Shown: piece after piece, positions 10,587 through 48,715 of the stretch
Layout: the number at the start of each line of letters is the position of its first letter
Position numbering within the stretch: the stretch's first letter is position 1
From: Gammaproteobacteria bacterium
GTDB taxonomy: Bacteria; Pseudomonadota; Gammaproteobacteria; UWMA-0217
Length of the DNA: 54,360 nt
Assembly (NCBI GenBank): GCA_026981985.1
Contig: JALSHZ010000098.1
Coordinates: forward strand, 1-54,360
Direction of reading: 5' to 3'
Translations under genes and position numbers: made by a program
Notes under the pieces: generated by a model
The model's database searches: none
What the model was told of the DNA's origin: nothing
The model's input: the letters and a program-made list of their open reading frames with translations, nothing else

Positions 10587-10618
10587 GTTGGGCACGCTCC
10601 GGTTTGCCCAACCTACCC
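10587..10618. repeat. Dispersed repeat copy (TTGGGCACGCTCCG...GCCCAACCTACC)
   Basis: GTTGGGCACGCTCCGGTTTG followed by CCCAACCTACCC recurs almost exactly at 46635-46664 inside a MITE-like element. The stretch contains the short palindrome TTGGGC/GCCCAA. Confidence 0.6.
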
Positions 10619-45719: not shown

Positions 45720-45812
45720 GTGGGTATCCGTATGTTGAGGCTTGATTCAAACATTGAGACACGCCTATCAAATGTAATTGCGTGACAGGCGGTGGCTGTC
45801 TGATATCCTAAA

Positions 45813-45827
45813 GTCAGATTGTCTGAC
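45813..45827 (+). promoter_or_regulatory. Palindrome upstream of mntA-hepT, possible operator
   Basis: GTCAGA-TTG-TCTGAC is a perfect 6-bp inverted repeat just downstream of a possible -35/-10 pair (TTGCGT, TGATAT, 17-base spacer) and before the GGAGG ribosome binding site at about 45834. The position suits autorepression of a toxin-antitoxin operon. Confidence 0.4.
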
Positions 45828-45844
45828 ACAAACGGAGGCTCTGC

Positions 45845-46135
45845 ATGAAGCCATCTACTGCGTACCAACATCACCGTGAAGCCATCCGGCGGATTGTAGC
45901 GGAGCACCATGCCAAAAACCCACGTATCTTTGGTTCCGTCCTCCACGGACAAGATACGGATGAAAGCGATCTCGACATCCTCATCGACACCACCGAGGAG
46001 ACATCTCTCTTCGATGTTGGCGCAATCCGCACGGAACTGACCGAACTCCTCGGGGTAGAGGTTGACGTTCTGACCCCCGGCGCATTGCCTGAGCGATGGA
46101 AAATAAAGGTACTCAACGAAGCGATGGCTATATGA
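45845..46135 (+). CDS. mntA: MntA-type nucleotidyltransferase antitoxin
   Basis: 96 aa. The minimal nucleotidyltransferase motif GSx10DxD is complete: G30-S31, D42, D44 (IFGSVLHGQDTDESDLDILI), with a third Asp at D74 (VEVDVLT). In characterised type VII systems, MntA adds AMP residues to HepT and neutralises it. RBS GGAGG lies six bases before the ATG. The stop overlaps hepT (ATGA). Confidence 0.88.
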   Translation: MKPSTAYQHHREAIRRIVAEHHAKNPRIFGSVLHGQDTDESDLDILIDTTEETSLFDVGAIRTELTELLGVEVDVLTPGALPERWKIKVLNEAMAI

Positions 46136-46518
46136 GTCCTCGGGATGAGCGCGCTCTTGGCGCTTACCTTGAACACATTCAGCACGCTATTGGCCGTATT
46201 CAACGCTATCTCCAAGACATCGATCGTGACAGGTTCCTCGTAAACGAAGAGAAACAGGATGCGGTGATCCGCAACTTGGAGATCATCGGGGAGGCGGCTG
46301 GCAATATCCAACGCCATTTTCCTGACTTTGCGGCAAAGCACCCGAACTTCCCTCTCAAAGCCGCTTATGGCATGCGAAATGCGTTGGCTCACGGGTACTT
46401 CAGTGTCGATCTGGCCGTGGTCTGGAGAACGATTGAGAGAGATTTGCCTACGTTGGAAATTCAGGTTCGGGAGATAATTCAATCCCTCAATGATGCTGGC
46501 GCATCGCCATCTACATAA
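46132..46518 (+). CDS. hepT: HepT-type HEPN ribonuclease toxin
   Basis: 128 aa from ATG 46132. All-helical DUF86/HEPN protein with IRNLEIIGEAAGNI and the active site Rx4HxY in RNALAHGY (R82, H87, Y89). The Tyr is the residue AMPylated in the Shewanella system. The end coincides with a mobile repeat: the stop codon TAA is the last three bases of the left TACATAA duplication, so the element sits immediately behind the gene and the reading frame is kept. Confidence 0.9.
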   Translation: MSPRDERALGAYLEHIQHAIGRIQRYLQDIDRDRFLVNEEKQDAVIRNLEIIGEAAGNIQRHFPDFAAKHPNFPLKAAYGMRNALAHGYFSVDLAVVWRTIERDLPTLEIQVREIIQSLNDAGASPST

Positions 46519-46727
46519 CTCAAGTTTCGGAGTTCGCGGCACTCACTCCTGCCCCCTGAATTCAGGTAGGCTGGGGAAAGGAACGATAGTGACGTGCCCA
46601 ACAACCATGTGCCGCTACAACACCAAGGCCTTCTTTGGGCACGCTCCGCTTTGCCCAACCTACCGGGAGCAGTCCGTTAGGATGTTGGTCAAATCCATGA
46701 ACTCAAGAAAGAGCTCCGAAACTTGAG
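46519..46727. mobile_element. 209-bp MITE-like element with TACATAA target duplication
   Basis: Terminal inverted repeats CTCAAGTTTCGGAGTTC (46519-46535) and GAGCTCCGAAACTTGAG (46711-46727) differ at one base. Both ends are flanked by TACATAA (46512-46518 and 46728-46734). No transposase inside. The interior carries another inverted repeat: about 46573-46613, GGTAGGCTGGGG ... TGCCCAAC, against TTGGGCACGCTCCGCTTTGC-CCAACCTACC (46635-46664), the latter also found at 10587-10618. Confidence 0.8.
46635..46664. repeat. Dispersed repeat copy inside the 209-bp element
   Basis: TTGGGCACGCTCCGCTTTGC then CCAACCTACC, differing by one base from 10588-10617. Confidence 0.65.
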
Positions 46728-46771
46728 TACATAAGTACCTACCGACAACAAGCAAAGCACTTTCTATTCCC

Positions 46772-48715
46772 CTACACCCGCCGCAACATCAGATTCCCGT
46801 AGCGATCATTCTCCGCCAGCCATCCTGGGGCAATCCAGGTCGTCGAGACATTCTCCATCATGATGGCGGGACCGGTCAGCATTTGCCCATCAGCCAGTGC
46901 TTCGCGCCGATAGACGGGAACGTCGTGTCCGACATCGGCCACGGGCGCAGTTGCAATCGGCGACGCGGCTTCAGCCATGGCCAGCACCGGCAGTGTCACT
47001 GCTGGCTCGTTCACTTCGGCCCGCAGGCGCAGGTTGACCAGTTCGATCGGAACATCCATATCAAAGCCATATTGCGCTTTGTGCAGGGCGTGGAAACGCT
47101 CGGCGAGGGCCTCGCGGTCATCGCTCCATTCGAGTTGCAGGGTGCTGGACTGGCCGACGTAGCGCAGGTCGGCCATGCGTTGAAAGCGTAACGCAGCATT
47201 CTCCGGAAATTCGCTGACGAGCTGCGCCGCCATCTTTTCGTAGTCATGGCCAACTTCCCCGCTTTCCATCAATGGCTGCAACCGGCTGTGAATGCGTTGC
47301 TGCGCCTGAGGTGCAACCACCATGCCAAGCGCCGACAACACGCCACCATGCATCGGCACGATCGCCTGGTCCATGCCCAACAGGTCGGCAAGACTACAGA
47401 CATGCAAGCCCCCTGCCCCGCCAAAACACATCAGGGCGTAGTCGCGCGGGTCATGTCCTTTCTGTATGGAGATGACGCGCAGTGCCTGCGCCATATGCTC
47501 ATCGGCAATGCGCAGGATACCGCGCGCCATCTCCTCGACAGCCAGCCCGGCTGCTGCCGCGAGCCTGCCAATCGCTGCGGCCGCAGCGGTCACATCCAGC
47601 CGCAGTGAACCACCCAATGAGGCCAGGCCGGGCAGGCGTCCCAGCAGCAGATTGGCATCGGTTACCGTTGCCCGGCGCCCACCCTGGCCATAGCAGGCTG
47701 GCCCTGGCGAGGCACCGGCAGACTGCGGCCCGACCTGGAGCATACCCCCCTCATCCAGCCACGCTATCGAGCCGCCACCAGCGCCGATGGTGTGCATATC
47801 GACCATCGGCACCGCCACGGGCCAGCCGGCAATTTCAGCATCCCCGGAGAGACGAATCTCGCCGTCGATCAAGGCCACATCGGTGGAGGTGCCGCCCATG
47901 TCAAAGGTCATCAGGCGCTCATGGCCACTGACCGCGGCCTGATACTTCGCCCCGACCAAGCCACCGGCAGGGCCGGAGAGCAGCAGTTGCACCGCATGTT
48001 CCCCCGCGCGTTCAGCCGCAATAGCGCCGCCATGGCTTTGCATCACCCGCACCGTGGCCGGCTTCAGTTCGGCGCTCAGGCGCGACAGGTAACGCTGCAT
48101 CAACGGCCCGACATAGGCGTTGAGCCAGGTCGCCATGCCACGTTCGTATTCACGAAACTCATTCATCACTGCGGAGGAGCGTGACACGAACACCCCCTCG
48201 GGCATGGCGGCGGCGATCCGCTTTTCCGCGCTGTCATCGACAAACGAGAACAGCAGGTTGATGGCAACCGCCTCGACGCCCGCCTGCTCGACTTGCTCGC
48301 GCAGGCGTTGCAGATCCTCATCCGTCAGCGGATCGAGCACTTCACCATCGAAACTGATCCGGCCACCGGTTTCAAAACAAAGCGCGCGCGGTACCGGTGG
48401 CTGCCTCGGTTCAGGGGTCAGATTGTAGAGTTCGCGGCGTGCCTGCCGCCCGATCGTCAGCACATCGGCAAAACCCCGGTTGGTGATGTAGGCGGTGCGC
48501 ACGCCCTTGCTCTCGAGTACGGCATTGGTCGCGACGGTCGAACCATGCACGATCAGCAGGTCATCGAGGTCGATGCCCATCTCGCGAATGCCCTGCAGGA
48601 TGGCGCGGTCCGGCGCGCCCGGTGTGGACAACACCTTGTGTACCAGCAAGGTATCGCCATCGCTATAGACGAAGTCGGTAAAGGTACCGCCGGTGTCGAT
48701 GCCAAGTCTTTTCAT
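46772..48715 (-). CDS. Hydantoinase/5-oxoprolinase family protein, subunit A (HyuA-like)
   Basis: 647 aa. The N-terminal ASKHA-like fold starts MKRLGIDTGGTFTDFVYSDG, then LLIVHGSTVATNAVLESKG; the central region has MQSHGGAIAAERAGEHAVQL, LLSGPAGGLVGA, TFDMGGTSTDVALIDG, TIGAGGGSIAWLDEGGMLQV and GPQSAGASPGPACYG. These are the hydantoinase A motifs for ATP-dependent cleavage of hydantoins or oxoproline. A HyuB partner subunit is normally adjacent but none is in this window. Substrate unknown. Confidence 0.87.
   Translation of the reverse strand: MKRLGIDTGGTFTDFVYSDGDTLLVHKVLSTPGAPDRAILQGIREMGIDLDDLLIVHGSTVATNAVLESKGVRTAYITNRGFADVLTIGRQARRELYNLTPEPRQPPVPRALCFETGGRISFDGEVLDPLTDEDLQRLREQVEQAGVEAVAINLLFSFVDDSAEKRIAAAMPEGVFVSRSSAVMNEFREYERGMATWLNAYVGPLMQRYLSRLSAELKPATVRVMQSHGGAIAAERAGEHAVQLLLSGPAGGLVGAKYQAAVSGHERLMTFDMGGTSTDVALIDGEIRLSGDAEIAGWPVAVPMVDMHTIGAGGGSIAWLDEGGMLQVGPQSAGASPGPACYGQGGRRATVTDANLLLGRLPGLASLGGSLRLDVTAAAAAIGRLAAAAGLAVEEMARGILRIADEHMAQALRVISIQKGHDPRDYALMCFGGAGGLHVCSLADLLGMDQAIVPMHGGVLSALGMVVAPQAQQRIHSRLQPLMESGEVGHDYEKMAAQLVSEFPENAALRFQRMADLRYVGQSSTLQLEWSDDREALAERFHALHKAQYGFDMDVPIELVNLRLRAEVNEPAVTLPVLAMAEAASPIATAPVADVGHDVPVYRREALADGQMLTGPAIMMENVSTTWIAPGWLAENDRYGNLMLRRV

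Follow-up and report, generated by a model that had tools for sequence, protein, structure and literature searches.

The locus behind the hepT-like toxin gene of this gammaproteobacterial genome raises two questions: what kind of DNA has settled there, and whether its contact with the stop codon of the gene calls for a special explanation. The window, meaning the whole stretch of 54,360 nucleotides that was analysed, is contig 98 of a draft genome of 3.35 Mb in 149 contigs. The best explanation overall, to which we give a probability of about 0.93, is that a 209-bp MITE with IS4-type ends was mobilised in trans and landed at the sequence TACATAA behind hepT.

The gene pair itself lies outside the element. 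The mntA-like antitoxin gene, encoding a nucleotidyltransferase (45845–46135, plus strand), matches PF01909 at 3e-8 and falls below the cut-off of NF047752, and the hepT-like toxin gene (46132–46518, plus strand; PF01934, 1e-28), whose ATG overlaps the mntA stop, encodes 128 aa and has been left intact. The element sits between hepT and the convergent hyuA, a hydantoinase-like gene that takes its name from the sequence alone.

Structure and genomic copies of the element

The element (46519–46727, without assigned strand) is 209 bp long and ends in CTCAAGTTTCGGAGTTC and GAGCTCCGAAACTTGAG, which form 17-bp inverted repeats with a single mismatch. The left terminal inverted repeat occupies 46519–46535 on the plus strand and the right one (CTCAAGTTTCGGAGCTC, 16/17 against the left) occupies 46711–46727 on the minus strand, while a repeat search scored the inverted ends at 18 nt and 94%. 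Both sides carry an identical plus-strand TACATAA, at 46512–46518 and 46728–46734, so that the inverted ends and 7-bp flanks of the original prediction are borne out. A chance origin is rejected because a perfect 7-bp repeat at the predicted border is expected about once in 16,000, because the 14-bp end, allowing at most one mismatch, occurs 86 times in the genome and its reversed control not once, and because the RNA fold of the stretch has a z of -3.6. The only open reading frame inside the element is a mechanical frame of 78 aa that begins within hepT, and searches of Rfam and of plasmids with the element returned no match.

The same 86 occurrences confirm that other copies of the ends are present in the genome, as the original prediction expected. 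In a BLAST comparison of the element with its own genome, three full-length relatives were found at 78–86% identity (contigs C105, C147 and C36), together with two partial ones. When the ends were paired, at least 28 short elements emerged, ranging from 129 to 377 bp; in 14 of them the flanking direct repeats reach 6 bp or more. By their interiors these elements belong to several unrelated classes, which have the ends alone in common. A second and more abundant class of 375–377 bp with the same ends was also observed (contigs C31, C73, C79, C126, C46 and others of this genome, G000), and several of its members have duplications of 6–7 bp. Among the full-length relatives, no copy but that of the window has a perfect 7-bp duplication, and on this ground it may be the youngest of them.

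Short length, lack of coding capacity, terminal inverted repeats, a target-site duplication and multiple dispersed copies are all combined in this element. Bacterial MITEs are 70–300 bp long with inverted ends of 15–30 bp (PMC3733652; PMC6382973), and the element resembles RUP, NEMIS and Nezha (PMC3733652) and MITEAba12 (PMC6382973), which are likewise non-coding, often adjacent to genes and presumed to borrow a transposase. Unlike those, the element beside hepT belongs to an IS4/ISPepr1-type end family, for which no published description was found among the papers searched; a literature search for the end sequence returned no paper. The MITE-like reading is thus supported by the copies, by the duplications and empty sites of sibling elements, and by an identifiable parent family.

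A probable IS4-type parent

The transposase of the parent was correctly predicted to lie outside the window, and searches with proteins and family models found no complete transposase in the assembly of this genome, an absence that we attribute to assembly collapse. Nine contigs break 121–125 bp inside one near-identical left end, because, as it appears, a multi-copy insertion sequence was too repetitive to assemble; shared breaks are the expected pattern of such collapse. A tenth contig end (C52) bears the opposite end, the single right-hand type found against nine of the left-hand type, and its inward peptide, terminating in DFFVQSLQLDTFTLQLEYE before a stop, resembles the C-terminus of IS4 transposases when compared by eye.

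Autonomous elements with the same ends do exist in other genomes. A scan of public genomes with the 18-bp end recovered at least 116 stretches, and the matches listed come mainly from gammaproteobacteria, plus Nitrosomonas. Among these listed matches are elements of 1.64–1.67 kb bounded by the same ends (L108, L172, L222 and L176, the last at positions 519–2156 of its locus with a perfect TACTAAA duplication). Such full-length elements of other proteobacteria encode transposases of up to 492 aa; those of L222 and L108 score 268.9 and 265.5 bits with the NCBIfam model NF049925 (IS4_4; cut-off 250), and the YREK motif (Y-2-R-3-E-6-K) is present as YALRWGIEVYFKEAK in the transposase of the same-end insertion sequence of other genomes. 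An autonomous element with these ends and a 7-bp duplication, of the kind named in the original prediction, is thus seen in another genome (L176), while this assembly has no complete copy. IS1634 was considered as the parent family and rejected, with no match in the genome and 15 bits for L222 against a cut-off of 100.

The subgroup of the parent is probably ISPepr1, as judged from the end consensus, the size and the AT-rich targets. ISPepr1 elements have the end consensus YT-AA-YTT---A and AT-rich duplications of 7–8 bp (De Palmenaer et al., 2008; PMC2266710), and CTCAAGTTTCGGA matches all fixed positions of that consensus (Table 1 of the same paper). Autonomous relatives of 1.5–1.7 kb, the YREK motif and AT-rich targets are further likenesses. 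In contrast to ISPepr1, the element has 209 bp and no transposase, the duplications at these ends are mostly 6–7 bp rather than 7–8 bp, AT-rich and of the form TTNNTAA, and the subgroup is placed by the end consensus.

Empty sites, target preference and the hepT stop codon

An empty TACATAA site directly behind hepT, which the original prediction expected in relatives, was not found among those examined in the same genus, in the same family and among HepT relatives elsewhere; these relatives either do not have the gene pair at the locus or have other flanks. In a genome of the same genus, rpmB-rpmG and hyuA are conserved with unrelated DNA between them, and the interval that holds mntA-hepT and the element in the window (45723–46776) is missing between rpmG and hyuA, so that the toxin–antitoxin pair itself is a lineage-specific difference. 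Similarly, the genomes examined from the same family have rpmB-rpmG and hyuA at this locus and lack mntA-hepT, and HepT relatives elsewhere (42–76%) have no TACATAA or element ends nearby. Another genus of the family harbors an independent same-end element within the rpmG-hyuA interval (L252, G003:C76:5200-9000, at about 650–820), with TTACTAT on both sides.

It could be supposed that the element arrived with mntA-hepT as a single mobile unit and not afterwards, since the same-genus genome has neither the pair nor the element between otherwise conserved neighbors. We consider a joint arrival improbable: there is only one pair of ends, on one side of the genes, the mntA side has no matching end, and what the ends and the 7-bp duplication enclose is the 209-bp unit and nothing more.

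Empty sites are available for sibling elements with the same ends. In contig C5, a dispersed repeat is broken by a 240-bp sibling with CAAGTAA at its flanks; uninterrupted copies of the repeat (GCTTCCAAGTAACTTC) occur in C5, C12 and C37, with left-hand homology of just 12 bp in this comparison. In addition, an element of a Thiodiazotropha symbiont genome (L125) has an uninterrupted counterpart (L163), and another apparent empty site in Thiodiazotropha (L218) was set aside, as its junction fails to align cleanly. A Thiogranum MAG carries a 45-bp element with a perfect 7-bp TTACTAA duplication (L212, 2795–2839) that consists of little beyond the two inverted ends and is perhaps the shortest unit that these ends can move.

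The left duplication does hold the hepT stop TAA (46516–46518) in its last three bases, and the gene is intact, as originally proposed; the idea that the insertion preserved the toxin by supplying a stop did not stand. Since the right TACATAA is identical to the left one, hepT would have had the same stop before the insertion and nothing was rescued. HepT relatives terminate at almost the same residue as the HepT of the window, which together with the unchanged stop indicates that the insertion neither truncated nor rescued the gene.

A flank logo computed over 253 distinct element ends resembles TTNNTAA, with values of 0.76 for T(-6), 0.52 for T(-3), 0.64 for A(-2) and 0.74 for A(-1), and the preference was seen independently in this genome and in other genomes. 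The element meets the hepT stop because its ends prefer such targets, that is, sites finishing in TAA. A stop triplet ends 102 of 244 element flanks (42%), and 11 of the 244 terminate an open frame of 80 or more codons. Enrichment at stop codons, which a looser first count had hinted at with a twofold excess, was rejected, as the gene-end rate at T..TAA sites is 2/63 for elements and 59/2106 for nearby control sites (p = 0.7). The stop-codon position is what the target preference gives and needs no special explanation, and nothing points to a particular link between the element and the toxin gene.

These counts also bear on the suggestion that the element has been retained as a long hairpin serving as terminator or mRNA stabiliser for mntA-hepT. 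Its location between convergent genes, its strong fold (z = -3.6) and the independent same-end element in the same interval of another family member are consistent with such a role, and REPs and MITEs have been described as 3′ RNA elements (PMC3733652). However, no T-run terminator was found on the hepT strand inside the element, the fold is a trivial consequence of inverted repeats, dozens of further copies lie in unrelated places, and the coincidence with gene ends does not exceed that of matched motifs. We regard retention for this function as unlikely.

Nested palindromes and the proposed mechanism

The dispersed repeat that had been predicted to be nested in the element is real. The first REP-like palindrome (46566–46602, plus strand) has its GTAG tag at 46566–46569 and a longer loop, and this variant also occurs by itself in locus L008; the second (GTAGGTTGGGCAAAGCGGAGCGTGCCCAAA, 46634–46663, minus strand) has its GTAG tag outward and 16 genome matches at three or fewer mismatches, against none for the control. 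A second, solo copy of the nested repeat lies in the window at 10587–10616. Both palindromes show what distinguishes GTAG REPs, an unpaired GTAG tag at one end of a short, dispersed stem palindrome, and together they make up a GTAG-type REP pair in head-out arrangement. It is close to the Coxiella REP GTAGGTTGGGCTGAGCTTGCGAAGCCCAAC (PMC2817692), with which it shares a GTAG tag ahead of a GTTGGGC...GCCCAAC palindrome, and has the same head-out layout (PMC2817692; PMC3733652). Unlike Coxiella-type GTAG REPs, these palindromes are carried inside a transposable element. In the Thiodiazotropha symbiont genome, a uniform class of about 249–254 bp with the same ends (L116, L122, L149, L165, L170, L193, L200, L214 and L218) carries GTAGGGTGCGGC...GCCGCACC palindromes inside as REP-like cargo.

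It is very unlikely that the IS4-type MITEs of these bacteria serve as vehicles by which REP pairs are acquired and dispersed, supplying gene ends with hairpins, with the insertion behind hepT tuning the toxin mRNA; a role of the element in toxin expression is unsupported. That the whole is a REP/BIME element whose flanking repeats are fortuitous, and not an IS derivative, as two internal GTAG-tagged palindromes and solo copies elsewhere might suggest, is extremely improbable, since siblings that share the ends and the duplications differ wholly in their interiors and lack these REPs, and the ends correspond to those of IS4 elements.

For the MITE with IS4-type ends, we infer mobility from anatomy, and mobilisation in trans by a resident parent is suggested by the shared ends and the contig ends. 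The transposase of that parent, visible only as contig ends, would bind the 17-bp ends, move the 209-bp unit and insert it where TACATAA had been cut in a staggered manner; the 7 bp would then be duplicated as the gaps are repaired. Given the TTNNTAA preference, TAA stop codons would often be hit, and an element placed immediately behind a stop would do no harm and could thus persist. The head-out REP pair would be cargo that travelled with the element, and a side effect as a 3′ hairpin on mRNAs between the convergent hepT and hyuA is possible.

The unit beside hepT is a well-documented but ordinary insertion, in which the apparent targeting of a stop codon is explained by target preference, and it advises caution, as landings beside toxin genes are no evidence of regulation. 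It also draws attention to an undescribed and widely distributed group of short elements tied to an IS4/ISPepr1-type parent.
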